From Paenibacillus sp. 32352 (GTDB lineage Bacteria; Bacillota; Bacilli; Paenibacillales; NBRC-103111): a DNA stretch of 64,000 nucleotides. A program made the translations under genes and the position numbers. Where the stretch lies: contig NZ_MZNT01000001.1 of NCBI RefSeq assembly GCF_002042965.1, forward strand, positions 868,001 through 932,000. The letters run 5' to 3'. Below the pieces are notes generated by a model. It ran no database searches, had not been told where the DNA came from, and saw only the letters and a list, made by a program, of their open reading frames with translations. Below, one piece after another: positions 24,349 through 54,500 of the stretch (positions are counted from its first letter, which is position 1; each line of letters opens with the position of its first letter).

Positions 24349-25419
24349 GTGAAATTGTCAAAAAAGATGTCGTTGTCGCTGTCGTGCTATCTCATTCTAA
24401 TGTTAACCGCTCTAGCAGTCATACCTGAAAGAACAGCTTCAGCTTCAACGGATACGGCACCGCCTACCTTCAGTCTTACACTGTCTACCGATAAGCCGTC
24501 AAAGGGGGAAAATGTGGAGGTTGTTGTCAAAGGACATCAGCTTAAGGATGTTTACGCCTACGAGGTGAATTTGGATTTTGATCCCAGCCTGTTGCAATTG
24601 AAGGAAGCTACTACAGAGATTCCCGGCTTCTCTGTTTCCCCTATAGTGAAGGACAATCGTATTCAGCTTGCACACACACGAATTGGTAGGGTCAGGGGAG
24701 ATGAGGGGGAACAAACCTTGTACACGCTAAAGTTCGAAGCACTAGAGCAGGGAGCAACGACTTTAACTATTGAGAAAGTCAAATTGGTTGATTCTATCCT
24801 GACAAGCAACGTGCTGCAAACAGATACCCAGGTTGCCTTAGCGATTGACAGCTCCTTTCCTTTCGATGATCTGGGGGATTATGGCTGGGCAAAAGAGGCT
24901 ATTGCTTACTTGACGAACAAAGGAATTGTTAATGGCACATCCGACCATACCTTCAGTCCGGGTCAGCCTGTAACCCGTGCCGATTACCTGCTGCTGCTTA
25001 TGAGAGCGCTTCAGATTAAGGGGAATACGGCGGACCCATTCGTCGACGTGCCGCCAGGAGCCTATTATGAGCAGTCTGTGGCGGCTGCCAGAAGCTTAGG
25101 TATTGTGGAGGGGGATGAATACAATCAATTCCATCCTCAGCAACCTGTCACCCGGGAAGACATGATGGTTTTGACGGATCGTGCACTGCGTGCCGTCAAT
25201 AAACAGTTGACACGGGCAGATGAGTCCATTTTGAAGAGCTATACGGATAAAGCGGATATTTCAGGCTATGCCTTGGAAAGCATCACAGCACTTGTGGGAT
25301 CAGGCATCGTCGAAGGCTACAATCAGGGGATTTATCCCAAAGAAACGACGAATCGAGCGCAAGCGGCGACGCTGATTTACAAGCTCTTGATTTCCAAGCT
25401 ATCTGCAGCAAAGGAATAA
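24349..25419 (+). CDS. Surface anchor: cohesin-like domain plus three SLH repeats
   Basis: This 356-residue secreted protein has a signal peptide (residues 1-32, ending near ASAS), a cohesin-like beta-sandwich (about 38-165) and three S-layer homology repeats (about 167-350). Cohesin features are FSLTLSTDKPSKGENVEVVVKG, YAYEVNLDFDPSLLQLKEAT, and TLYTLKFEALEQGATTLTIEKVKLVD. SLH motifs include FDDLGDYGWAKEAIAYLTNKGIVNG and FVDVPPGAYYEQSVAAARSLGIVEG. SLH repeats bind pyruvylated secondary wall polymer. The protein would therefore display a single cohesin on the cell surface, like a minimal anchoring scaffoldin. The next two genes encode glycosidases ending in dockerins. GTG 24349 follows AAAGGAG. 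It is 18 bp before the next gene. Confidence 0.88.
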   Translation: MKLSKKMSLSLSCYLILMLTALAVIPERTASASTDTAPPTFSLTLSTDKPSKGENVEVVVKGHQLKDVYAYEVNLDFDPSLLQLKEATTEIPGFSVSPIVKDNRIQLAHTRIGRVRGDEGEQTLYTLKFEALEQGATTLTIEKVKLVDSILTSNVLQTDTQVALAIDSSFPFDDLGDYGWAKEAIAYLTNKGIVNGTSDHTFSPGQPVTRADYLLLLMRALQIKGNTADPFVDVPPGAYYEQSVAAARSLGIVEGDEYNQFHPQQPVTREDMMVLTDRALRAVNKQLTRADESILKSYTDKADISGYALESITALVGSGIVEGYNQGIYPKETTNRAQAATLIYKLLISKLSAAKE

Positions 25420-25437
25420 AATGAAGGAGTGAACAGG

Positions 25438-28400
25438 ATGAGGAAAAAAGGATTCATGTCTGTTCTCCTCGTTACGGCGTTATGTCTAGGCATGCTGACT
25501 TCACCTGCCTCCGCTGTTACTGCAGATGAAGTAGATATAGATTACGCCGTGGATAACGGGACATCGAATCAGGTTGCCAGCGGTTTTTTACACGGGATTA
25601 CAGGGGAGGAGCCCGCGCAATACTTGATTGACGGGGTTAAGGTCCGTGCGATACGCGGATCTGACCACCACCCGAATCTGCCTAGTCTCTTTGAAGAGAA
25701 AACCTATACCCGGGTCAAAGAAACTGGCGCGAAGCTGATGGTAGGGCTTTATTATTACACCAGCCAACCCGGCAATACGTATTGGCCAGGGGATAATGGG
25801 GACTGGAAAACATGGGAAAGCGTTGTGGAAAGTGTCTATCAGGAATCGGTGACGAAGGGACTCGACGTTTATTCCTGGATTCCCTGGAATGAACCTCGGC
25901 TGCAATGGACAACCGCGGTCAGGAACGTGGATAAATATTTGGAAGCTCATAAAGTGGCTTATCGTAAGATGAAGTCGCTGAATCCTTCAGCGAGGATCCA
26001 GGCACCAGAGGATAATTCCTATAACTTTGAATTCATGAAAAAGTTTCTGACCTATTGCAAGGAACAGGGCTGTCTCCCCGATATTCTGAGCTGGCATGAG
26101 CTGTCAGAAGGAGCATCGGACATAGAAGCTCACACGGCGGAGATCAAGAATTGGATGCTGGCGAACGGGATTACCCCGATGCCCATTGCAATCACGGAAT
26201 ACCAAGGTTGCTGCACTTACAACAATATCAACGGTTGGGAAAGCGGTATGGCAGTTTCCTATATCGCGAGACTGGAAAGATCCGTGAAGAACGGGCTGGC
26301 GTACGGACTCAAATCGGCCTGGGATTATTCGGGAGACGATCCCAAATTCGCAGCGAGCCTGGGAGATCTTGCGGACCGGAACAGCGTCACGATGCCTAAA
26401 GGCATATGGTGGGTGTACAACGCCTATAAAGATATGTCAGGACGTTTAGTGGAAGCGCGATCATCCAATAAGAACAAGATCGAAGTATTGGCGAGTCAGG
26501 ATCCGGTCATGAACCGTTCTGTCATCTTAATCGGTAGTGAACATTGGAGGGAGCCTGAGGAAATTACTTTGCGTCTGAATCACCTGGATCATGCCTCCTA
26601 TTTGCTCCGGAATGGCAAGCTGCATCTGAAGGCGGAGATGGTACCTACTGCTGATACGCTGATGTCTCCTTATACGATGCTGGAAGGGGATTATGCCGCA
26701 GCTAACGGCTCGGTGTCGATCAAGCTGCCGCCCTTGTTACCGAAGGCAGCCTACCGGATTTATGTTTCATCCGGCACAGCGGAGGCTCCATCCTATACAG
26801 TAGAGGCCGAATCGCTCCAGGCTCAAGGAACCGCCGGCCGAGTGTACCGGACGTTCGAGGAAAAGGAAGCAAGCGGAGGAAGAGCTGCCATTCTGGAGGC
26901 AACTTCTGCTGGCGATTCACTTACTTACACAATACCGGTAGCTTCCGCAGGGATCTACGATGTAAAAGCGAGAGTGAAGTCGGAAGCGAACCGAGGTATC
27001 TTTCAGTTGTATGTCAATGATCAGGCGTACGGGGGACCGAAGGATACTCACGGACCGTTCGACTACTATACCGTAGATTTCGGACATATTCCGGTTCAAG
27101 GCAATGCTCTTGAGCTGAAGTTCAAAGCCGTCGGCAAGAACAGCTCCTCCTCGAGCTATAACATGGTATTCGACTCGTTCACGTTAAGCAAGCTCGGCGA
27201 GATGAAGCTGTCTCCGCCACAAGGCTTAACCGCCACTGCCGGGGATGCACAGGCTCAGCTCACCTGGACTCCGTTAACGGGAGCCGACAGCTACAACGTA
27301 TACCGGGGATTGACGGCGGAAGGACCGTTCGTAAGCATTGCTTCGCAAATCAGCAAACCTGAATTTACAGATACGGGCTTGGTGAACGGCACAACATACT
27401 ATTACGTAGTATCGGGAGTCAATGCTAACGGGGAGAGCGGTTATTCAGTGCCCATCAAGGCTGTGCCGCAGGGGCTTCTCCCAGTTGCAATCAAACTTGC
27501 CAACATACCTGCGCAGCTAAAGGTGGGCGATACCGTGGCATCCGTTGTATATGCAACCTATAGCGATATGAGTACGAAACCTATCACGGAAGGGGTTGTG
27601 TATGGAAGCAGTGACAGGCACATTGTTGATATTGATGGGAAAGGCATCCTCAGGGCCATCAGTCCGGGCCAAGCCACGATTTCAGCGGCTGTCGGCAGTT
27701 TGCAGACAACGTTTACTCTAACCGTTACGGAGAAGACGCCTTCCACGCCGCAAGCGATATTGACCGGAGCAGACACAGTAAGCGCCGGAGCTGAATTTAC
27801 AGTCGGTTACCAGCTCAAGCATGGTGAGGGTATCTATGCTCAGGATCTCACCTTCACGTATGATCCGAGTCAAATGGATTTCATTTCGGCGGAGACGGTC
27901 AAGAATGGATTAGTGATTGCGGATCAGGCCGTGAAGAACGGTCAAGTCCGAATACTTGCAGCGAGCACGAATCCTGCCTCCGCTGGTGCGGATGGCGATC
28001 AAATCGTGCTGCATTGGAGAGCTAAGCCGAGCTCTCAACCGCAAGTCGCAGTCATTACGCTGTCCAAGGTTATGATTGCCAATGCATCTGGACACGAGAC
28101 ATCATTGCCTGCTGTATCTCACAGCGTGCAAATCATGGCAGTTGATAAGAAAGCGCTTCTGGATTTGATCGGAGATGCGCAAGCCAAGCTGGATGCGGCT
28201 GTAGAAGGTACTCATCCGGGACAATATCCCGCAGGCTCCAAGGCAGTGCTCCAATCCGCCATCAATAAAGCCAGAGCGGTAGCTGAGTCACCGGAAGCAA
28301 CACCGCTTGAGGTACAGCAAGCCGTTACTGATTTGACGGCTGCCATACAAGCCTTCATCCATTCCGTCCATGTGCTTCAGGGCGATCTTAATGGGGACGG

Positions 28401-28563
28401 CAAATATTCCATTGGAGATTTGGGAATAGCTGCTGCGGCATACGGTAAGACATCTGCGGATACAGACTGGGAAGCTTACCGCAAAGCGGATATCAATCAG
28501 GATGGCCGAGTCGATATTATCGATTTGGCAGCCATAGCGGCTAATATCGCTCTGGTACGTTAA
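25438..28563 (+). CDS. Secreted clan GH-A glycosidase with CBM, Fn3, cohesin, FIVAR and dockerin
   Basis: This 1041-residue protein has a signal peptide (1-26) and a TIM-barrel glycosidase domain (about 30-345) with clan GH-A features. IPWNEP places the acid/base at Glu152, and ITEYQG places the nucleophile at Glu254. GH39 or a relative is plausible, but the family is not certain. Then follow a beta domain (345-440), a CBM6/35-like module (445-585), Fn3 (590-680), a bacterial Ig-like module (682-762), a cohesin-like domain (772-900), a FIVAR-like helical spacer (903-980) and a type-I-like dockerin (981-1041). The dockerin has two calcium loops, DLNGDGKYSIGD and DINQDGRVDIID. ATG 25438 is 8 nt after AAGGAG; a GTG at 25429 overlaps it. 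Cohesin and dockerin in one chain suggest self-assembly. Confidence 0.88.
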   Translation: MRKKGFMSVLLVTALCLGMLTSPASAVTADEVDIDYAVDNGTSNQVASGFLHGITGEEPAQYLIDGVKVRAIRGSDHHPNLPSLFEEKTYTRVKETGAKLMVGLYYYTSQPGNTYWPGDNGDWKTWESVVESVYQESVTKGLDVYSWIPWNEPRLQWTTAVRNVDKYLEAHKVAYRKMKSLNPSARIQAPEDNSYNFEFMKKFLTYCKEQGCLPDILSWHELSEGASDIEAHTAEIKNWMLANGITPMPIAITEYQGCCTYNNINGWESGMAVSYIARLERSVKNGLAYGLKSAWDYSGDDPKFAASLGDLADRNSVTMPKGIWWVYNAYKDMSGRLVEARSSNKNKIEVLASQDPVMNRSVILIGSEHWREPEEITLRLNHLDHASYLLRNGKLHLKAEMVPTADTLMSPYTMLEGDYAAANGSVSIKLPPLLPKAAYRIYVSSGTAEAPSYTVEAESLQAQGTAGRVYRTFEEKEASGGRAAILEATSAGDSLTYTIPVASAGIYDVKARVKSEANRGIFQLYVNDQAYGGPKDTHGPFDYYTVDFGHIPVQGNALELKFKAVGKNSSSSSYNMVFDSFTLSKLGEMKLSPPQGLTATAGDAQAQLTWTPLTGADSYNVYRGLTAEGPFVSIASQISKPEFTDTGLVNGTTYYYVVSGVNANGESGYSVPIKAVPQGLLPVAIKLANIPAQLKVGDTVASVVYATYSDMSTKPITEGVVYGSSDRHIVDIDGKGILRAISPGQATISAAVGSLQTTFTLTVTEKTPSTPQAILTGADTVSAGAEFTVGYQLKHGEGIYAQDLTFTYDPSQMDFISAETVKNGLVIADQAVKNGQVRILAASTNPASAGADGDQIVLHWRAKPSSQPQVAVITLSKVMIANASGHETSLPAVSHSVQIMAVDKKALLDLIGDAQAKLDAAVEGTHPGQYPAGSKAVLQSAINKARAVAESPEATPLEVQQAVTDLTAAIQAFIHSVHVLQGDLNGDGKYSIGDLGIAAAAYGKTSADTDWEAYRKADINQDGRVDIIDLAAIAANIALVR

Positions 28564-28715
28564 AGCTTGTCACGGAGGAGGTTTCCGTCTCCTTTCGTTT
28601 TGTCACATGACGTACTTGAAGCAACCGCAGCATTTTCATTCTAAAGCATGGAGGGAGCCGTAACCGGCTTTCTCTTGCTCATAAAATTATGGATTCTAAG
28701 GAGGATGCAAAAAAG

Positions 28716-31700
28716 ATGAAGCTCAAACGAACGCTTAGCAAGCTGCTTGTCATTGCCACTGCGTTGGCCGGATTAACGACAGGCGGCCTGCTATCCCCAA
28801 CCGTACAGGCAGCGGATACCAATCCCGTTGTTCATGGGCTGAAAGGGGAGTACTACACCAATTCGGGTTCCCCGTCGTTTAATTTCGGGACGTTGAAGTC
28901 AACTGTGCTGGATCCGAATCTGGACTTTGGAAGCTTGGAGACCGCATTCGGTATTCTCACAGGGCAGCAGGACAAAGTCAATGTACGCTGGAGCGGGTTT
29001 ATCGAACCGGAGTTTTCTGAGGATTATACTTTTTACATTATTGGGGATAACGGATTTCGCCTTTGGGTAGATAACAAGCTCGTGATCGACCATTGGGTAA
29101 ACGATTGGGATAAGGAACAGGTCGGTACACCGATTCATTTGACAGCTGGCCAAAAATATCCGATTAAAGTGGAGTATTTCGAAGATACCGGCGGCTCCAA
29201 TATTCATCTGCGCTGGTCCAGCCCGTCAGTAGCGAAAAGCGCAGTGCCCTCAGAAGCTTTGACACCGCCAAGCGGATTTTCCTACGGAGGCAAAGTTTCT
29301 GTGGACGGGAATACCGCTGAGGTGAAGCTGGATCAGGCAGTTCAAGCGCTCCCTGCGGGAGCTGCAGATCATTTCAAGGTGAAGATTATGGGCACAAATT
29401 GGCCGATCACTTCAGCAGCTCTGAAGCCCGGCGACGATAGCGCATTGCTCCTGAACTTCGAGTATCCTGTATATTCGAAGGATGTGTGGCTGGTTAATGC
29501 AAGCTATGACGGTCAAGGAGGGCTGAAAGGAAAGGACGGAGCAGCTGTTCCGGCATTTGAGAAATGGCTTCAGAATGATTCCAAATATCAGATTATGACG
29601 CCGTGGGCGAATCAGGTGACCAAAGAAAATGTGCTGCCTGAATATCCTAGACCGCAGCTTGTCCGGGAGCAGTGGCAAAACTTGAACGGCGAATGGGAGT
29701 TTCAAACGGCAAAAGCGGGAGAGGCCATACCTACAGGGCAAACCCTGAAAGAAAAGATTGTCGTTCCATTTGCCACGGAATCCGTGCTCTCGGGTATCCA
29801 TCGCGTGGAGAACCTAATGTGGTATAAGCGTTCCTTCACGGTACCAGACAATTGGAAGGGTCAAAGGGTGATGCTGAATTTTGGCGCTGTCGACTATTTG
29901 GCAACGGTCTACGTCAACGGCAAGCAGGCTGGTACGCACAAAGGCGGCTACACTTCGTTCAGCCTGGATATTACCGACCAATTGAAGCCAGGAGAGAATG
30001 AGCTTATTGTTCACGTAATGGATAACACGGATATGGGCGAGGACCAGGCGGTCGGTAAGCAAACGGTGAAAAAGCTGGGCGGCATCTGGTATACGTCCGT
30101 ATCAGGCATTTGGCAGACCGTATGGCTGGAGCCTGTGGCACCAGCACATATCGCCAAGCTGGATATGACGCCTGACATTCAGAATCAGGTGCTGAAATTT
30201 ACTGTACCTTCCGAACAGGCGGGCAATCTGACCGTAGAAGCGATTGCTTTCAAGGAGGGGCAGGAAGCAGGAAGAATTAGCGGGCCTGCTGGTCAGGAGC
30301 TCAAGCTGCCGGTGCCGAATGCGAGGCTTTGGTCTCCGGATGACCCGTTCTTATATGATTTGCAGGTTCGATTAAAAAACGGGGATCAAATCGTGGATCA
30401 GGTCAAGAGCTATTTCGGTATGAGAGAAATTAAGCTTGGCAAAGTCGATGGTATTACAAGACCTCTCTTGAACGGCAAGTTCGTCTTCCAAATGGGGCCG
30501 TTGGATCAAGGTTTCTATCCAGACGGTATTTATACGGCGCCAACCGATGACGCATTGAAATTTGATATTCAAACAGTGAAACGCATTGGCATGAACACGA
30601 TCCGCAAGCATATTAAGGTTGAGCCTGCCCGCTGGTACTATTGGGCCGACAAACTGGGTGTGCTGGTATGGCAGGATATGCCGAGTCTGGAGGATCGCCA
30701 AGGCAACCATGGCTCCGATATTTCGCAAGCGGCCAAAACCCAATGGCTTAAGGAATATAAGGAAATGGTCGACCAGCTGCGAAGTGTGCCGTCTATCATA
30801 GAGTGGACTGTATTTAACGAAGGCTGGGGAGAATTCGATTGGGGCGGACAGCAGACGAAGGACGCCGTCAATTATGTAAAGAGTCTCGATTCTACTCGCC
30901 TCATCAATAACGCAAGCGGCTGGCAGGATTCAGGAACTGGCGATTTGGTCGACATGCACTCCTATCCTGCTCCTAATTCGCCGGTACCTACAGATGCTCG
31001 GGCAGCCGTTCTGGGGGAATATGGAGGACTTGGCATACACACGCCGGGGCATGAATGGAGCCCACTCGTATTCTCTTATCAGGAAATGAAAAATAAGAAG
31101 GAAATTACGGATAAGTACATCGACTTCATAAACCAATTGAAGAATCTTAAGGTCAGCCCTGGCCTTAGCGCTGCGATCTATACCCAAATCTCCGATGTGG
31201 AATATGAGATTAATGGCTTGCTGTCTTATGACCGCAAAGTGGAGAAGCTGGACTTTGACCGTATTGCCAAAGCGCATCGCGAATTAATCGGGACAACTAA
31301 CACCGAGGATTTGTCTAAGGGCATTCAGTCAGCAGAGCAGTTTTTTACTACGTTGAAAGCAGGGGATAAGCCTGGCGAATATGCGCCGGAAGTGCTGAAT
31401 CGCTTCCGTGACGCCATCAATGCTGCCAGACAGGTGCTTGCCGCCCCTGGGTCAACTGCAAGCGATTATCAAGCATCACTGAACAGTTTAGCGACGGAGC
31501 AGCAGCTTCTATTTACACTGGTGCATGATCCGATTCCAAAAGGTTCTGTCGTAGATAACTTCGACAGCACGACACTGAACAGCGCTTGGAGCATTTATCG
31601 GCCGAATAATGATAATTGGAGCCTAACCTCGAATCCTGGCAATCTTACCATTCAGACCCAAACTGGGGACAGCTTCGAAAAATCAAATGCGCTTAAAAAT

Positions 31701-32951
31701 GCATTTTTACAAAATGCTCCTTCCGGCGATTTTGTTATAACGGCGAAGGTAAATGCATCGGTAAGGAAAAACTTCCAGCAGGCCGGACTCCTCGTTTGGC
31801 AGGATGAAGATAACTATGTGAGATTCGGTCACGTCTGGGATACGCAGGGAGCTACAGGCAAGTCGCTGGAAACGGCATATGAGAAAAATGCAAAGTATAC
31901 TAAAGCAACGAACATGGCACTGCATCCGGGCTACGATACCTCCTACATGCAAATCCGCAAGGTAGGTAACGTATATACCACTTATTATTGGGATGGCTCC
32001 AGCTGGAAGCAAGCAGCAGATCCGATGACAGTAGAAATATCGAATCCTAAGGTCGGTTTCTATGCCATTTCGGCATCGGACGGAACATCTATTCAAGCGA
32101 AGTTTGATTATTTCTCGGTCGGTCCGGTCACAAATGATCCTGCAGCAGTGCTTACAGGTCCTGCCTCAGTTACGAGGGGGCAAACCTTCGATACCGCTGT
32201 CCGCTTGGATAGCGTGACAGGCAGCGTCTATGCGCAGGATTTGAACTTCACTTATGATGCGAATGAACTGGAGTTCGTCTCCGCCGATAGTTTGATGAAT
32301 GGTTGGATCATCGTCGATAAGAAGGCTGAGCCCGGACATGTCCGTTTGATCACTGCGAATATTAACGGAGCTGCCGCTTCCGGTGAATTGTTCAAGCTTC
32401 AATGGAAAGCGAAAGATGCAGGTGCACAAAATAGCAGCACGATTTCGCTCAACAAGCTTATCATTGCGAACGGACAGGGGAAAGAGACGGAGCTTGAGCC
32501 AGCATCGCTTAGCATTCGTATCGAGGCAGGCGTGGATAAGAGCGCATTGAGCTCATTGATCGCAACGGCCCAAAGCAAGCATGATGCTGCAACGGAAGGT
32601 ACTGCGATTGGTCAATATAAGCCTGGCTCCAAAGCGGCGCTGCAAGCAGCGATTGATCTGGCACAGGCTGTTTATAACAATGCGGCAGCTACTAAGGCAC
32701 AAGTCGAGCAGGCAGTTAACGATTTGAATGCGGCCCTGCAAACGTTTATTCATTCGGTTAATACTCCGCATCATGGCGATGTCAATGGTGACGGCAGGTT
32801 CTCCGTCGGCGATTTGGCGATTGTTGCCGCGGCATACGGCAAAACTTCCGCTGATCCTGATTGGGCTCAATACCAGCAAGCGGATATCAACAACGACGGC
32901 ATCGTTGACCTTGTAGACTTGGCGACACTTGCCCAAAAAATATTGGAATAA
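28716..32951 (+). CDS. Secreted GH2 glycosidase with PA14, lectin-like, cohesin, FIVAR and dockerin modules
   Basis: This 1411-residue protein has a signal peptide (1-32), a PA14 domain (about 33-185; FRLWVDNKLVIDHW), a short Ig-like part, then a complete GH2 core: sugar-binding domain (308-478), Ig-like domain (478-575) and TIM barrel (575-858). VFNEGWGEFDW places the acid/base at Glu702, and LGEYGGLG the nucleophile at Glu768. A helical spacer (865-945), a concanavalin-like module of DUF1349 type (945-1138), a cohesin-like domain (1140-1268), a FIVAR-like spacer (1270-1350) and a dockerin (1350-1411; DVNGDGRFSVGD and DINNDGIVDLVD) follow. The tail parallels that of the preceding enzyme. I chose ATG 28716, 11 nt after AAGGAGG. 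The substrate is unknown; beta-galactosidase or galactofuranosidase types are possible. Confidence 0.9.
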   Translation: MKLKRTLSKLLVIATALAGLTTGGLLSPTVQAADTNPVVHGLKGEYYTNSGSPSFNFGTLKSTVLDPNLDFGSLETAFGILTGQQDKVNVRWSGFIEPEFSEDYTFYIIGDNGFRLWVDNKLVIDHWVNDWDKEQVGTPIHLTAGQKYPIKVEYFEDTGGSNIHLRWSSPSVAKSAVPSEALTPPSGFSYGGKVSVDGNTAEVKLDQAVQALPAGAADHFKVKIMGTNWPITSAALKPGDDSALLLNFEYPVYSKDVWLVNASYDGQGGLKGKDGAAVPAFEKWLQNDSKYQIMTPWANQVTKENVLPEYPRPQLVREQWQNLNGEWEFQTAKAGEAIPTGQTLKEKIVVPFATESVLSGIHRVENLMWYKRSFTVPDNWKGQRVMLNFGAVDYLATVYVNGKQAGTHKGGYTSFSLDITDQLKPGENELIVHVMDNTDMGEDQAVGKQTVKKLGGIWYTSVSGIWQTVWLEPVAPAHIAKLDMTPDIQNQVLKFTVPSEQAGNLTVEAIAFKEGQEAGRISGPAGQELKLPVPNARLWSPDDPFLYDLQVRLKNGDQIVDQVKSYFGMREIKLGKVDGITRPLLNGKFVFQMGPLDQGFYPDGIYTAPTDDALKFDIQTVKRIGMNTIRKHIKVEPARWYYWADKLGVLVWQDMPSLEDRQGNHGSDISQAAKTQWLKEYKEMVDQLRSVPSIIEWTVFNEGWGEFDWGGQQTKDAVNYVKSLDSTRLINNASGWQDSGTGDLVDMHSYPAPNSPVPTDARAAVLGEYGGLGIHTPGHEWSPLVFSYQEMKNKKEITDKYIDFINQLKNLKVSPGLSAAIYTQISDVEYEINGLLSYDRKVEKLDFDRIAKAHRELIGTTNTEDLSKGIQSAEQFFTTLKAGDKPGEYAPEVLNRFRDAINAARQVLAAPGSTASDYQASLNSLATEQQLLFTLVHDPIPKGSVVDNFDSTTLNSAWSIYRPNNDNWSLTSNPGNLTIQTQTGDSFEKSNALKNAFLQNAPSGDFVITAKVNASVRKNFQQAGLLVWQDEDNYVRFGHVWDTQGATGKSLETAYEKNAKYTKATNMALHPGYDTSYMQIRKVGNVYTTYYWDGSSWKQAADPMTVEISNPKVGFYAISASDGTSIQAKFDYFSVGPVTNDPAAVLTGPASVTRGQTFDTAVRLDSVTGSVYAQDLNFTYDANELEFVSADSLMNGWIIVDKKAEPGHVRLITANINGAAASGELFKLQWKAKDAGAQNSSTISLNKLIIANGQGKETELEPASLSIRIEAGVDKSALSSLIATAQSKHDAATEGTAIGQYKPGSKAALQAAIDLAQAVYNNAAATKAQVEQAVNDLNAALQTFIHSVNTPHHGDVNGDGRFSVGDLAIVAAAYGKTSADPDWAQYQQADINNDGIVDLVDLATLAQKILE

Positions 32952-42420: not shown

Positions 42421-45072
42421 ATGAGCAATCGAATTAGAGAAGTACTCGAGGGGCAAGAGCATAATTATATCCTTCCTTTTCTCTGGCAGCACGGCGAGGA
42501 GGAACAGGCAATTCGGGAGGAGATGGCCCGTGTTCATGAATCCGGAATCGGGGCCGTTTGCGTGGAGGCGCGACCACATCCTGATTTTCTCGGACCGAAA
42601 TGGTGGAAGGACATGGACATCATTATGGAGGAAGCACGGAATCGGGGAATGAAGGTATGGATGCTCGATGACGACCATTTTCCGACGGGTCATGCGGCAG
42701 GTAAGGTGAAGGAGGCGCCGGAGGAGCTTCATCGCGTGTTCCTGGGTGAGCGATATATCGATACCATCGGTCCGGCTGAGGGCACGTCTCTGCTGCTGGA
42801 AACCCTGCTGCTGCGCGGACTTAGACCGACCATCTCGAATAGCCAAAGCGCGAGTGGCCGAAACAAGCTGGTTTCGGTCGTTGCGGTTCGTCGCAATCCG
42901 TCTAACGGATCATTAACCGATGACTCGATCGATTTAACTGAACTTGTACAAGAGGGTATCCTGTATTGGGATATACCCAAAGGGTATTGGCGCATATTTA
43001 TTATTTCGGAAACTAAGGAAGGCGGCAGCAAGCAGCAGGCCGATTATTTGAACCCGCTGGATCGGGATTCCGTTCGGATTTTGCTCGATACGGTATATGA
43101 GGCTTTTTATGATCGGTACAAGGCGGATTTTGGAAAGACATTCGTTGGCTTCTTTTCGGATGAGCCCGGATTTTACAACGATGAGAAAACGTTCGACTTC
43201 AACTCCAAACCCGGAAAGCAGGGAGTGCCGCTTCCATGGAGCCGGGACATGCCGACCCTGCTGGAGGAAGCTCTGGGGCCTGATTATCGGAAGCATTTGC
43301 ATCTCCTCTGGCATGATGAAGGAGAACGGTCGAATAGGGTACGGTATCACTATATGAATATTGTCAGCAAGCTCTATGCGGAAAGCTTCTGCAATCAAAT
43401 CGGAGAATGGTGCAGAGGCCGCGGAGTAGAGTACATCGGGCATGTCCTTGAAGATAACAACGTTCATGCAAGGCTCGGTCCCGGCACCGGACACTTCTTC
43501 CGCTCGCTCTGGGGGCAAGACATGTCAGGGCTTGATGTGGTACTGTGGCAGATCGTTCCCGGCTTCGATGAAATGTCTTTCCGCCAGCCAACGAGCGGGG
43601 AGACGGATAGTGAATTTTACCACTATGGCCTCGCCAAGCTTGGTGTGTCTTTGGGACACCTCGATCCGAAGAAACAAGGCCGAACGATGTGCGAATTGTA
43701 TGGAGCCTATGGCTGGACGGAAGGCTTAAAGCTGATGAAATGGCTCACAGACCATATGCTCGTCCGCGGCGTAAACTATTTTGTCCCGCATGCCTTTACT
43801 CAAAAAGCTTTTCCGGACCCGGATTGTCCTCCGCACATGTATGCGAGCGGGCAAAATCCGCAGTACCGTTATTATAAGCATTTGAATCACTATATGAATC
43901 GAATCAGTCACTTAATCTCAGGAGGAAGACATGTGGCGACCGCGGCGGTCGTGTACCATGCTGAGGCCGAATGGTCCGGGGAGGCGATGTATTTTCATAA
44001 ACCCGTGAAGAAATTAATGCAGCATCAGATTGACTGCGACGTTCTCCCCATCGACGTGCTTTTGGAAACGGGGAACGTAAAGGACAACAAGCTGCTTGTG
44101 AGTGGCGAGGACTACGAGTGCCTGATCGTGCCCTATGCAGAAGCGCTTCCGGCGGCGATGATTCAGCGTTTGGTCCGGTTTGCCGAACAAGGATTAGCTG
44201 TTCGTTTTGTTGACGGGCTGCCGCTTCGATCGAGTGAGGGCAGCGATGTTTCTGCCGAACTGGCTTGTCTTGCCAATCACCGCAATGTGAAGCTTGCAGC
44301 TCTCGACAACCTGGCACAAGACCTTATTGCGGACGGACATTATGATATTCGAGTTGACCAATACCAGCCTTATCTTCGGAACTATCACTATGTTCATGAT
44401 GGTTCGGATGTGTTTATGTTCTTTAATGAACATCCAAATCAACCGATTAGCACGGAGATTGTTTTGCCCGTTCAGGGTGATGTCTATGCTTATGATGCCT
44501 TCCTGAATCGGTTGATCCTATTAAATGTGGAAAGGGAGAGGGACGCAACGGCGGTACAGCTTGTCCTGCATCCGTATGAATCTATCGTCCTTCTGCATGG
44601 AATTGATCTTGAAGGGTATGCAGCACACCCGCCGCATACAATTGGAACGTCTTTAGAGCTCCAAGGCGATTGGACTGTTTCCACAGCGAATGCTGAGAGC
44701 TACCCTCACTTTACGGAGTGGGGAAAACTGACGGCCTTAGTGAACATGAGCAGGCCTGACCATTTACCACGGTTTACGGGCACCTTCCGGTATGAAACGG
44801 AATTTGAGTGGAGCGAATCCGCAAGCCAGGCTCTATTGGATTTGGGCGAGGTCTATGAGACAGCAGAGGTATGGGTAAACGGCGAACAGGCCGGGGTGCG
44901 CATCTGTCCTCCTTATCACATACAGATAGGCGGTCTAAAGAAGGGCAGCAACAAGCTTGTCATCGAAGTTACGAATACGCTAGTGAAAGATCAGCGTGAC
45001 TTCTTGTCTTCCTTTGCTCAGCAGGAACCAAGCGGACTCATCGGGCCTGTCAAGGTGAAAAGCATCATATAA
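42421..45072 (+). CDS. GH106-like glycoside hydrolase (alpha-L-rhamnosidase family)
   Basis: This 883-residue protein has an N-terminal TIM-barrel region resembling GH106 enzymes: LPFLWQHGEEEQAIREEMARVHESGIGAVCVEARPH near residues 18-55, then KWWKDMDIIMEEARNRGMKVWMLDDDHFPTGHAAGKV. A middle beta region and a C-terminal jelly-roll galactose-binding-like module follow (ALLDLGEVYETAEVWVNGEQAG and the closing GLIGPVKVKSI). GH106 proteins release alpha-L-rhamnose from pectic side chains. There is no signal peptide, so it probably acts in the cytoplasm on imported oligosaccharides. Catalytic glutamates cannot be placed with certainty. ATG 42421 follows TAGGGGGGC. It lies between the two paralogous binding-protein genes. 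Confidence 0.78.
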   Translation: MSNRIREVLEGQEHNYILPFLWQHGEEEQAIREEMARVHESGIGAVCVEARPHPDFLGPKWWKDMDIIMEEARNRGMKVWMLDDDHFPTGHAAGKVKEAPEELHRVFLGERYIDTIGPAEGTSLLLETLLLRGLRPTISNSQSASGRNKLVSVVAVRRNPSNGSLTDDSIDLTELVQEGILYWDIPKGYWRIFIISETKEGGSKQQADYLNPLDRDSVRILLDTVYEAFYDRYKADFGKTFVGFFSDEPGFYNDEKTFDFNSKPGKQGVPLPWSRDMPTLLEEALGPDYRKHLHLLWHDEGERSNRVRYHYMNIVSKLYAESFCNQIGEWCRGRGVEYIGHVLEDNNVHARLGPGTGHFFRSLWGQDMSGLDVVLWQIVPGFDEMSFRQPTSGETDSEFYHYGLAKLGVSLGHLDPKKQGRTMCELYGAYGWTEGLKLMKWLTDHMLVRGVNYFVPHAFTQKAFPDPDCPPHMYASGQNPQYRYYKHLNHYMNRISHLISGGRHVATAAVVYHAEAEWSGEAMYFHKPVKKLMQHQIDCDVLPIDVLLETGNVKDNKLLVSGEDYECLIVPYAEALPAAMIQRLVRFAEQGLAVRFVDGLPLRSSEGSDVSAELACLANHRNVKLAALDNLAQDLIADGHYDIRVDQYQPYLRNYHYVHDGSDVFMFFNEHPNQPISTEIVLPVQGDVYAYDAFLNRLILLNVERERDATAVQLVLHPYESIVLLHGIDLEGYAAHPPHTIGTSLELQGDWTVSTANAESYPHFTEWGKLTALVNMSRPDHLPRFTGTFRYETEFEWSESASQALLDLGEVYETAEVWVNGEQAGVRICPPYHIQIGGLKKGSNKLVIEVTNTLVKDQRDFLSSFAQQEPSGLIGPVKVKSII

Positions 45073-51575: not shown

Positions 51576-54500
51576 GTGAAAAGAACATCAACCAAGCTCG
51601 TACGCATGGCTACGGTCACTGCGCTGATCGCTGGTCTTCTTCAGCCTATTGCGGCCCTTCCGCACGCTCAAGCGGCGGATACCGGCAGGAAATCGCTCGA
51701 TGTCCGCAAAACGTTAACCGCTCCTGTTATCGACGGCAAGCTGGATGAAAGCTTGTGGAAAGTCGATCAACCGCTGGCCGTCCAGGTCGGACAAGGCACG
51801 TTTAAGGACGCCAAATTCGGGCTGCTGTGGGACAACCAGTACTTATATATCGGTGTGAAATCGGATGATGACAGCTTGATACATAACGGAACCGGCAATT
51901 GGTTCGAGCAGGATAACATCAATGTGTTCCTTGATCCTACGCTGCATCAATCCGCTCCTTATCAGAATGACGACATGCAGGTCGGCCTTGTATACCAGCC
52001 TAATTCAAGCACGCCGGAATTTCATTTCGGTGCGGCGCTGAATGGACACAGCGGGAAGGACGAGAAGAAAATATTACGAGCCATCAGCCAATCGCCTGCG
52101 GGTTGGTCTACGGAAGTGGCGATACCGTGGGATATGCTAAATTTCGATCCTAATTTGAAAAAACAGCTGGGGATGGAGATCGGAGTGACGGATAGATACG
52201 GTACAGCTGCAGCGGAACAACGGTCAAGCTACTGGAGCGCTTACCAATCCTCCTCCTTTTGGAACGATACATCCGGATACGGCATCTTGAACCTCGTGGA
52301 AGCGAACCCGGTATCCGGGACGGTCAATCCGGTGCTGCTGCAGGAAAATTTCGATGGTGTGCCAGCCGGGCAAATCCCGGCGAACTGGATTTCCGATGTG
52401 AATGCGGGAAGTCCGGAGTTCTCGGTAGTCAAGGATACGTATGGTGATGGAAGAATGACTTTCAATGGCAGCTCGTCCGGCAAGCAGAGCCGGATTACAG
52501 CTCCAGTGCAATGGGACAATTATGCCATCGAAGCGGATATGCGGTTTGAGGCCGTAGTGAACGATGCCAGATGGGCGTCGATTATGTTCCGCGTGCCTGC
52601 AAACGGTAAAAATCCGTACGACCAGATGGCGATTCGCCGCAACGGCACCTATGAGCTGGCTTATCGGATGCCGGATAACAACTGGGCTTCTCCGACGCCG
52701 GTTTCGGGAACGTGGCAGACACTCGCGATGAATACGTATTATACGATGAAGGTGCGCGTGTTCGACAACAATGTAAAAGAATATATTAAAGCCAAGACGG
52801 ACCCGGCTTATACGCTTTTGATGGATAAGAGCTTTACTACCAACCTGCTGGAGCGCGGGAAGATCGGCTTGCAGGCAGACCAGAGCAAGGTTTCGTTCGA
52901 CAATGTGAAGGTGACACGAATTACGGCTGACCGGTTGGACGTGACGATGCCGAGTACACTGGAGGCGCTGACAAGCGGACAGACCGTGACAAGCAGTGTA
53001 TACTACTCCGACGGAATTACGGAGCCGGTTGCAGCCGATCGCGTGAAGCTGTACTCCGGGGATGAGAGCATTATTAAGATCATAAATAATCAGCTGGTGC
53101 CGCTCAAGCCAGGCAAAGTAACGATAAAGGCGGTCTATGCCAACGCAGAAGCGAAGCAGGAGATTACTGTGACGCCTTCTCTGACCGGCTTGAAGACAGT
53201 TGCCTTGAAGCATGACGAAGGTTATTTGCTGGCAGTCACCCATCAGCCTCTCGATTTGAGCAAGGTGACGCTAAAAGCCGAGTATAACGATTTGACGACG
53301 GGCACAACAACCGGAGATCAATTGAGCTGGACCTCGAGCAGCCCGGATGCTGCCGTATCCGGCGGGCAGCTTATCATCAACAAGAAAGGGATTTATACGA
53401 TCACCGGAACGAAGGATAATGCAGCAGTCTCGCTGGTCGTCGTAGCCAAAGACGCGGCAGATGCGGAGTATGTGCTGTATGAGGAAAACTTCGACGCTTT
53501 GCCTGACGGAACCTTGCCTCCCGGCTGGACAAGAAAGGAAGGAGCGACACCGTCGGCAGCGGCTGTAATGAACGGGGCGTTCGAAATCAATGCAGCAGCC
53601 TCACCGGATAACCCCTCCCGGGTGCTGCTCCCTTCCTATTTGGGCTTATTCGGAAACTATAAGATTGAAGCCGATGTTACCCATTTGGCGGCTAACGATA
53701 CGGCAAGATGGCATTCCCTGATGTTCCGAATTCAAAATCACGATTACCCTTATTACCAAATGGCGGTAAGAAAAGATGCGACCGCAGCCAATGGCGTCGA
53801 ATTTGCGGAGAGAACACCGGCTAACGCTTGGAACGTCATCGATCGGGCTTCCAATACGGAAGCGATTGATTCGGCCAAAATGTATTACTATACGGTGAAA
53901 GCTTACGGCAGCAGGGTTCAGGAATCGATTAATAATAAGGTCATTATCGATACAGATGCGGCCACTGCCTATGCGAAAGGCGAAATCGGTTTGCAGTCCA
54001 ACGGAAGTACAATGAGACTCGACAATCTGCGCGTCACGCTGCAGCAGGATGCACTTCCGCCGCTTCCGAACGGACATTTCGCGGATGTGCAGGAGCCTGA
54101 CACGAAGATCGCTATGGCGGCTTCCATTGTAACGGACATTCAAAGCACCGATGATTTGGTGAAGCTGAATCAGCCGATGCTTCCATCCACTGTCATTTTC
54201 CATGTGGCGGAAGGGTTGAAGGTAACCGACAACTCCGGTCAAAAGACGATTGGCAGCCTGGACACGCTTCTTAGCGCGATTGACGGGCGTATGATTCCTG
54301 CTTTTTATGTAACGGATGCCGCAACCGTGGATCAATTGACGGCATTTTTGGCGGATCAAGGCTGGGAGGATGCGGATATCATTTCCGATCAAGCAGCACT
54401 GATTCAAAGGGCGCGGACGGCTTACCCGAGTATCAGGGGCATTCTCGATTTCAGTGCCAACGATAAGCTGACGAAAGCGGAGCTGCTGGATATCCGCAGT

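Follow-up and report, generated by a model that had tools for sequence, protein, structure and literature searches.

Results

Within the window, the 64,000-nucleotide stretch of the Paenibacillus sp. 32352 genome analysed here, three adjacent genes on the + strand encode a protein with SLH domains and one cohesin, followed by two enzymes that each end in a cohesin, a FIVAR spacer and a dockerin, an anatomy proposed in a first-pass annotation and confirmed by the open reading frames, Pfam and our own profiles. The first gene (24349..25419) encodes an anchor protein of 356 residues with a signal-peptide-like start, a cohesin of the class that we term CohA (residues 35-165; 24451..24843; Pfam Cohesin E 2.5e-7, above the family cut-off) and three SLH domains (residues 164-349 by our own profile; 24838..25395; Pfam SLH E 1.9e-33, three stretches). 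By sequence, this CohA matches solved cohesins weakly (best E 0.0014); its predicted fold matches cohesin 2vo8 (VIA Z 17.0, rmsd 1.9 over 127 residues) and that of the SLH region matches 3pyw (Z 17.6). The AlphaFold2 model of the anchor has a mean pLDDT of 73, with the cohesin blocks mostly at 80-93 and one at 65. Pfam, our own profiles and the fold match thus place a cohesin and SLH domains on the same chain, as in class 4 of PMC11557425, the SLH-anchoring scaffoldin, defined in the available part of that source by at least one cohesin and an SLH domain on one chain.

The second gene (25429..28563) encodes link enzyme 1 (1044 residues), with a GH39-like catalytic region, fn3, Big_2, a cohesin of a second class (CohE), FIVAR and dockerin. 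A Pfam scan returned no family above cut-off for the catalytic part. The stretch searched (residues 31-447; 25519..26769) matches by sequence 5u22 (E 6.5e-28), 8uwt (whose title names family 5/39 of glycosyl hydrolases; E 6.1e-25) and, weakly, several beta-xylosidases, and we accordingly take the enzyme to be GH39-like. Its CohE (27748..28134; Pfam Cohesin E 1.3e-9) and FIVAR spacer (28135..28362; Pfam E 5.1e-8) are also found by our own profiles, and a type I dockerin with both calcium loops follows (28375..28548; Dockerin_1 E 3.8e-5, 24.2 bits versus a cut-off of 22.9). Link enzyme 2 (1420 residues; 28689..32951) comprises a PA14 domain (28833..29255; Pfam E 2.2e-22), GH2 sugar-binding, Ig-like and TIM-barrel domains (29679..30977; Pfam E 6.6e-20, 1.4e-12 and 3.5e-9), a GH43_C2-like concanavalin domain (31554..32120; Pfam E 3.8e-19), a CohE (32139..32522; Pfam Cohesin E 1.5e-11) and a FIVAR spacer (32526..32753; Pfam E 6.2e-11), both of the latter also detected by our own profiles, and a type I dockerin, again with both calcium loops (32763..32945; Dockerin_1 E 2.4e-7).

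The cohesin-FIVAR-dockerin module of link enzyme 2 was modelled by AlphaFold2 with confident domains (mean pLDDT 89, pTM 0.59). Its CohE matches the folds of 2vo8 (Z 18.9) and 2jh2 (Z 18.2), and its FIVAR-dockerin part matches 2ozn_B in fold (Z 15.2, rmsd 7.3) and 2jnk in sequence (E 4.5e-14 over query residues 133-269). The enzyme therefore has the hallmarks of the Clostridium perfringens type, a NagJ/NanJ-fold cohesin on a glycosidase (2vo8, 2jh2) and a FIVAR-dockerin pair (2jnk, 2ozn_B). The module is similar to the NagJ cohesin and NagH FIVAR-dockerin of C. perfringens, whose complex has been solved (2ozn), and a C. perfringens cohesin (2vo8) is the best fold match for both CohA and CohE.

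Nine bases separate the first two genes and 125 the second and third. Since promoter and terminator scans gave no excess over shuffles (9 versus a shuffle mean of 10.6, and 7 versus 8.9, respectively), we argue for an operon from spacing and strand. A terminator-like stem lies at 28574-28595, between the second and third genes, and carries no weight for or against the operon. The same trio is syntenic in P. doosanensis (L030), where the full-length enzymes are 74% and 86% identical. This synteny, together with the position of all five anchor genes of the Paenibacillus sp. 32352 genome near dockerin genes, argues against a chance arrangement: 5/5 anchors have a dockerin gene at a distance of at most 500 bp, versus 0.8% expected for a random gene of this genome by a simple length count.

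A whole-genome search and our own profiles revealed 14 cohesin matches (E ≤ 1) on 14 open frames of this genome, five on SLH proteins and nine on dockerin-bearing proteins. Nine of the ten dockerin proteins thus carry a cohesin as well, and the gene for the one dockerin-only protein lies 8 bases from an anchor gene. For three of the enzymes hmmscan gave no Pfam cohesin; the whole-genome search and our own profile both find one, and these two were used. Four enzymes of one cluster share near-identical modules. No open frame on the 70 contigs (listed as 100% complete) has two Pfam-detectable cohesin matches, which bears out the earlier claim that the assembly lacks a scaffoldin. The adjective "minimal" does not survive, because the genome has four anchor loci besides the trio, the whole set comprising five anchors, nine proteins with both cohesin and dockerin, and one dockerin-only protein. 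The notion that the trio is unique was likewise dropped, given the further anchor loci in this genome and in the family. At least 62 SLH open frames were found (150 scored of 199 candidates). When the coordinates of these 62 are compared by eye, only five have a dockerin gene 20 kb away or closer, and all five carry CohA.

The cohesins split into two sequence classes, CohA on anchors and CohE on enzymes, a division that the first-pass annotation had missed. At an identity of only 13-19% to the CohA of the window, CohE sequences are so distant that binding of both classes by the same dockerins cannot be assumed, which we count against the assembly proposed below; a single dockerin class would need to recognise both cohesin classes or be restricted to one. 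Class-specific residues are conserved across 168 cohesins, and an acidic residue in strand 3 is retained in both classes (E in 69/71 CohA; D or E in 96/97 CohE). In our motif alignment this residue aligns with Asp39 of C. thermocellum, which in the available part of PMC5772552 is described as contacting the Ser/Thr motif of the dockerin. Distance correlations over 67 anchor-enzyme pairs (59 after removal of near-duplicates) gave small partial values: CohA with the neighbouring dockerin, SLH removed, r 0.09 (p 0.046), below the 0.20 for SLH with dockerin given CohA. No CohA-specific coevolution signal was seen, and values this small speak neither for nor against pairing. Regions L030-L032 were left out of this analysis because, their contigs being equal in length to contigs of G092, G030 and G035, they were taken to be the same genomes.

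Both calcium loops are intact in both window dockerins, as had been stated, and their positions 10-11 read I-G and I-I in link enzyme 1 and V-G and L-V in link enzyme 2, also as stated. The suggestion that these positions mark a new specificity is weak and was dropped, because position 10 of loop 1 is I or V in 107/108 family dockerins and position 11 is G in 99/108, and because the C. perfringens NagH dockerin aligns with I-G at the same loop-1 positions; position 11 of loop 2 is more variable. Loop 2 is complete in 102/108 dockerins. The key residues of loop 1 are present in 85/108, with gaps in 12/108, a loss that again weighs against the proposed assembly; a GH10 enzyme of the Paenibacillus sp. 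32352 genome is gapped at the loop-1 residues and its dockerin falls below the Pfam cut-off.

The proteins follow an anchor/link/cap grammar. In 60 regions from 42 genomes, hand-picked from the CohA match list and not for their neighbours, SLH domains accompany CohA in 66/66 proteins and a dockerin in 0/66. A dockerin gene occurs in the same stretch for 64/66 of these anchors, at ≤500 bp for 63/66 and on the same strand in 62/64; the two anchors with no dockerin gene in the stretch (L071 and L087, 2/66) count against the assembly. CohE was detected by profile on 89/98 dockerin proteins, and 6/60 regions have a dockerin-only gene separated by 17-39 bases from an anchor gene. The cohesin is absent from such candidate caps by both Pfam and our own profile in L065, L079, L085 and L028:6128-7903, and by our own profiles alone in L067, L068 and L090; as the two kinds of profile disagree on some cohesins, cap status is double-tested for the first four only. 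The L103 protein is dockerin-only by our own profile, yet a Pfam cohesin is present. Two other candidates were discarded, L046:18041-18343 as a fragment of 100 residues and L081:13509-14066 because it overlaps a cohesin frame and is probably part of a split link.

Broader counts, which in rich genomes cover part of the first-look candidates, were obtained for 104 family genomes, for a sample of the class and for genome G042. Among the matches listed, the cohesin-FIVAR-dockerin module (≤ 1e-30) is present in all 46 family genomes that have CohA (E ≤ 1e-20); conversely, CohA at ≤ 1e-20 is missing from 17/63 genomes in which the module reaches ≤ 1e-30, again among the matches listed, which is a point against the assembly. 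Module matches between 1e-30 and 1e-45 may reflect no more than FIVAR arrays, of the kind seen in Cohnella and Brevibacillus proteins, and for this reason a stricter count at ≤ 1e-50 was made, in which 40/42 genomes also hold CohA among the matches listed. The two exceptions are G013, with divergent CohA-SLH genes, and G100, in which the CohA-SLH gene is broken into two frames, in each case adjoining a dockerin gene. In the class sample CohA and the module occur in the same 5/348 genomes, including Paenibacillus sp. 32352. G042 contains at least 64 full-length module rows versus 9 CohA (E ≤ 1e-10), and several of its contigs begin or end at the module.

Discussion

We propose that these genes probably encode a surface multi-enzyme system without a scaffoldin, built from anchors, links and caps and possibly extended into head-to-tail chains. 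An anchor would be an SLH protein that holds one CohA at the cell wall, a link a secreted carbohydrate-active enzyme with a CohE, usually a FIVAR and one dockerin, and a cap, of which there are a few, a dockerin protein without a cohesin. Links and caps are likely to bind CohA through their dockerins, which would place the enzyme on the cell. Somewhat less surely, though still with better than even prospects, the CohE of a docked link would take the dockerin of another enzyme, and short head-to-tail chains would extend from each anchor until a cap terminates them. Putative docking of the enzymes, both to the anchor and to one another, has gained genome-wide and family-wide genomic support.

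Chain growth may be absent from such a system: the dockerin-CohA contact could fix one enzyme per anchor while CohE is closed by its own dockerin before docking, binds another target or acts as a rigid spacer. We regard this as an unlikely but serious alternative, favoured by the separation of CohA and CohE into two classes, by the dockerin genes adjoining 63/66 CohA genes and by the fixed, short CohE-dockerin spacing that FIVAR imposes on one chain. It sits poorly with the excess of modules over CohA (9 versus 5 in the Paenibacillus sp. 32352 genome, at least 64 versus 9 in G042), since at equal expression most enzymes would be left without an anchor, and with the retention by CohE of its class signature and strand-3 acidic residue. 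Observations from C. perfringens bear on the same question: according to the available part of PMC12997984, which reports Adams 2008, only the GH31 enzyme of that species has both modules and its cohesin showed no binding in ELISA, a result that we count against chains. The pTM of 0.59 for the module model of link enzyme 2 is likewise a point against, being compatible with closure of the dockerin on the cohesin of its own chain.

The sequence and fold similarity of CohE and FIVAR-dockerin to the modules of C. perfringens, together with the weak sequence similarity of CohA to solved cohesins, could also be accommodated if dockerins bound the CohE of other enzymes in complexes that are released, with CohA binding another wall ligand and its gene position reflecting co-regulation only. 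This seems improbable to us, because CohA matches the cohesin fold well, strong CohA matches are, among those listed, confined to genomes with the module, and dockerin-only genes directly adjoin anchors. Least probable is a reading in which neither cohesin nor dockerin binds and both serve to span the wall or lend stability, recombination having carried them from one enzyme gene to another. Such a history would suit the near-identical modules that four enzymes of one cluster share, the G042 contigs that begin or end at the module and the loss of loop-1 residues from some dockerins, but the calcium loops are largely kept (loop 2 complete in 102/108, loop 1 in 85/108), as are class-specific residues over 168 cohesins, and co-occurrence with SLH-CohA is strict.

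If the anchored assembly with chains is correct, enzymes that link themselves, plus a small anchor, would be enough for surface assembly and a scaffoldin would not be needed, and the parts would offer simple, genetically encoded means of making enzyme chains. Cohesin-dockerin assembly would then reach from the well-known anaerobic degraders to a family of Paenibacillus-like bacteria. More tentatively, with the balance of our judgement slightly against it, this may be a distinct assembly class of head-to-tail enzyme polymers seeded by CohA-SLH proteins and ended by dockerin-only caps, in the Paenibacillus-containing family and a few relatives of the same order; with the anchor encoded alongside the enzymes in one operon, every substrate programme would produce a surface chain of its own.

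As far as our searches show, the cohesin classes, operon pairing, family-wide co-occurrence and caps are new relative to the literature found. P. guangzhouensis, called a "scaffoldin-containing microbe" in one paragraph on this one species in the available part of PMC11557425, has the same kind of parts list, termed "monovalent adaptors" there, with the suggestion that they may capture foreign dockerins; the largest scaffoldin of that species bears two cohesins, whereas no such protein was found in the Paenibacillus sp. 32352 genome. Sections 6 and 15 of that source contain no two-class cohesin split, operon pairing, family-wide co-occurrence or caps. C. perfringens shares the cohesin on the enzyme, one cohesin per protein, the FIVAR-dockerin pair and loop-1 I-G; both modules meet on one enzyme there, whereas enzymes with cohesin and dockerin are the rule in our genome, where an SLH anchor, of which the available part of PMC12997984 makes no mention for C. 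perfringens, accompanies them. Dockerin enzymes, an SLH-cohesin anchor and a type I dockerin, with two calcium loops in both window enzymes, recall the classical Acetivibrio-type cellulosome, which by contrast has a multi-cohesin scaffoldin; in our genome no protein with two or more cohesins was found and the cohesins are on enzymes. The Limousia mucinolysome, as presented in the same part of PMC12997984, likewise uses cohesin and dockerin in a non-cellulose system and has a wall anchor that bears a cohesin, but it has multi-cohesin scaffoldins, an LPxTG anchor and Sca proteins without GH domains.

Large extracellular complexes occur in the same broad family in P. curdlanolyticus B-6 and "Ca. 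Reconcilibacillus cellulovorans", one of them around an SLH protein. In the available parts of PMC6823336 and PMC6794216 their assembly is ascribed to glycosylation, S1 and Xyn11A being without cohesin or dockerin modules and the CelABC complexes without dockerin or scaffoldin. If our reading holds, it would provide a candidate mechanism for other complex-forming members of this broad family; the introduction of PMC6823336, citing work from 2006, speaks of "distinct cohesin-dockerin interactions".

A cohesin-dockerin gene trio with a putative surface anchor

Pfam searches bore out the domain make-up proposed by the first-pass annotation, namely an SLH-cohesin protein followed by two enzymes ending in cohesin, FIVAR and dockerin. 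All three genes lie on the plus strand of the window; their products are a single-cohesin SLH protein (24349-25419), a GH39-like enzyme (25429-28563) and a GH2 enzyme (28689-32951), both enzymes carrying a C-terminal cohesin, FIVAR and type I dockerin. A signal-peptide-like segment, recognised by eye, starts each of the three proteins, and the two enzymes retain NEP/TEY-type and NE/GEYGG-type motifs, which we take to be putative catalytic motifs of their families. From translations, the upstream genes were read as a sensor kinase, an AraC-type response regulator and a periplasmic-binding-type protein, and the downstream genes as a second two-component pair and sugar-type permeases; with such regulator- and transport-like neighbours, the trio region looks like a polysaccharide-utilisation region. 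Downstream of the transporter-like genes, the window also encodes a GH106-type alpha-L-rhamnosidase-like protein (42421-45072, Pfam E 4.7e-13), and at 51576-57182 an 1868-aa SLH protein with glycerophosphodiester phosphodiesterase, CBM9-like and 3-keto-disaccharide-hydrolase-like domains.

AlphaFold2 modelling gave confident domains for the cohesin-FIVAR-dockerin module of the GH2 enzyme (mean pLDDT 89, pTM 0.59) and a usable cohesin for the anchor (whole-protein mean pLDDT 73, pTM 0.49). The best fold matches of both modelled cohesins, one of the enzyme class CohE and one of the SLH-anchor class CohA, were C. perfringens cohesins (2vo8, Z 18.9 and 17.0, respectively). The FIVAR-dockerin model matched NagH as solved in complex with NagJ (Z 15.2, rmsd 7.3 over 131), and the SLH part of the anchor matched Sap (Z 17.6).

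Cohesins and dockerins across the genome

The assembly containing the window (7.93 Mb, 70 contigs) yielded 14 cohesin matches at E<=1, one per open frame and 13 of them above the Pfam cut-off, along with nine dockerins above the cut-off, one below it and one chance-level match. Nine cohesins share a chain with a dockerin, and the regions around the matches contain five SLH-cohesin proteins: three at 829-856 kb of contig C11, among GH43, GH43-CBM6, GH127, GH10 and weakly GH30-like proteins, the window anchor, and one on contig C30 adjoining a pectate-lyase-type protein. The SLH repertoire is rich (at least 62 open frames), and among the 62 listed a dockerin gene lies within 20 kb only for the five with cohesin. 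A single dockerin protein (L028:6128-7903) combines its dockerin with FIVAR and lacks a cohesin.

The below-cut-off dockerin belongs to a GH10 enzyme (L027:8692-9498) and yet scores 80 bits with our own profile; it keeps loop 2 and lacks the loop-1 calcium residues, and one of its sites may no longer bind calcium. A lone FN3-FN3-cohesin-dockerin protein without FIVAR (L029:6002-7285; G000:C46:228019-228552) has no SLH neighbour within its 14-kb stretch, and the family profiles give low scores to both of its modules, cohesin and dockerin.

Two cohesin classes and one dockerin class

Identity to the cohesin of the window anchor is 28-40% among SLH cohesins and only 13-19% among enzyme cohesins; profile comparison still identifies CohA and CohE as homologues (probability 97.7, E 1.4e-12). 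Strand 3 reads mostly [LV]YAYE in CohA and VYAQD in CohE, its acidic position being E in 69 of 71 CohA sequences, and D in 92 and E in 4 of 97 CohE sequences. In our alignment this position coincides with Asp39 of the C. thermocellum cohesin, which PMC5772552 lists among the contacts of the dockerin Ser/Thr motif. The cohesin 8-3-6-5 face is described in PMC8063739.

Dockerins were aligned from the 60 regions fetched for gene order (n = 100) and from the own genome (n = 8). Key calcium-loop residues are present in loop 2 of 102/108 and loop 1 of 85/108, and both window dockerins have complete loops, as had been claimed. Loop-1 gaps in 12/108 reflect either cut profile matches or real loss, the latter exemplified by the GH10 enzyme. 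In loop 1, position 10 holds I or V in 107/108 and position 11 holds G in 99/108, an inter-loop tryptophan occurs in all 108, and loop-2 position 11 is variable. The earlier suggestion that positions 10-11 might signal a new specificity did not hold up: as I/V-G is common to the family and the C. perfringens NagH dockerin aligns I-G at the equivalent place, these residues are mostly a family constant.

Gene order, anchors, links and caps

Gene order was analysed in 42 genomes other than the own genome, over 60 stretches (12-20 kb each) hand-picked from the CohA match list to spread over genomes. All 66 CohA proteins scoring above 60 bits carry SLH and none a dockerin; anchors in these loci are SLH plus cohesin. 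A dockerin gene is present in the stretch for 64/66 (within 500 bp for 63/66), on the same strand for 62/64; the CohA proteins of L071 and L087 have none within the fetched stretch. By profile, 89 of 98 dockerin proteins are links, that is, they also carry a cohesin. The three-gene set itself is intact in P. doosanensis (L030; enzymes 74% and 86% identical), and in P. alba and P. ferrarius the anchor and the GH2 enzyme are kept (78% each) and have further cohesin-dockerin proteins in their vicinity.

Caps, with dockerin and no detected cohesin, lie 17-39 bases from the anchor in six regions, as a GH43-type protein of 1826 aa (L065, L067, L068) or as smaller proteins (L079, L085, L090); the own-genome cap in L028 lies 8 bases from an anchor. 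No cohesin was found by Pfam and own profiles in the L065, L079, L085 and L028 caps, or by own profiles in those of L067, L068 and L090. A protein in L103, dockerin-only by own profile, has a Pfam cohesin and was rejected as a cap.

Anchors and modules co-occur

CohA matches at least 71 of 104 family genomes (E<=0.001) and the module at least 89. The module (<=1e-30) is present in 46/46 genomes with CohA at <=1e-20; 17 genomes have the module at <=1e-30 without CohA at <=1e-20. CohA is present in 40/42 genomes with the module at <=1e-50, the exceptions being G013, with divergent CohA-SLH genes adjoining dockerin genes, and G100, where the CohA-SLH gene adjoining a dockerin gene is split into two frames. 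In this last case (L113:1378-3092) CohA and SLH lie on adjacent open frames, as if an anchor gene had been split. Among 348 genomes sampled evenly across the class, CohA (1e-12) and the module (1e-30) both occur in the same five, the own genome included. Genome G042 has at least 64 full-length module rows versus nine CohA matches at 1e-10, a module count that is approximate because several modules lie at contig ends; several of its contigs start or end at a module. Five proteins of Cohnella and Brevibacillus (L041-L045) hold between two and four FIVAR domains each; SLH is also present in four of them, and own profiles detect neither cohesin nor dockerin.

A putative surface assembly

PMC11557425 reports 28 cohesin-dockerin proteins, many with GH domains, and five SLH-anchoring scaffoldins in P. 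guangzhouensis, and suggests an enzyme-rich surface with an architecture distinct from conventional cellulosomes; it is a direct precedent for the list of parts. Paenibacillaceae complexes are attributed to glycosylation in PMC6823336 and PMC6794216. A search of mainly open-access literature found no further account of the system; the new content here is the cohesin classes, the operon rule, the co-occurrence and the caps.

The simplest and most likely reading of this grammar is that dockerin-cohesin pairing would assemble enzymes at the cell surface, with anchors sitting at the wall, links docking and being docked on, and caps terminating the chain. That dockerin-only proteins are encoded beside anchors argues for CohA as a putative dockerin receptor, and that modules outnumber anchors argues that CohE may be used as a receptor too. 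Distance correlation between CohA and the neighbouring dockerin gave small partial correlations. C. perfringens cohesin enzymes are described in PMC12997984, which reports that the one enzyme there with both modules showed no binding via its cohesin in ELISA. One 677-aa protein (L083:10820-12853, genome G087) consists of two cohesin-FIVAR-dockerin sets and little else, with no obvious catalytic part, and is a possible branching adaptor.
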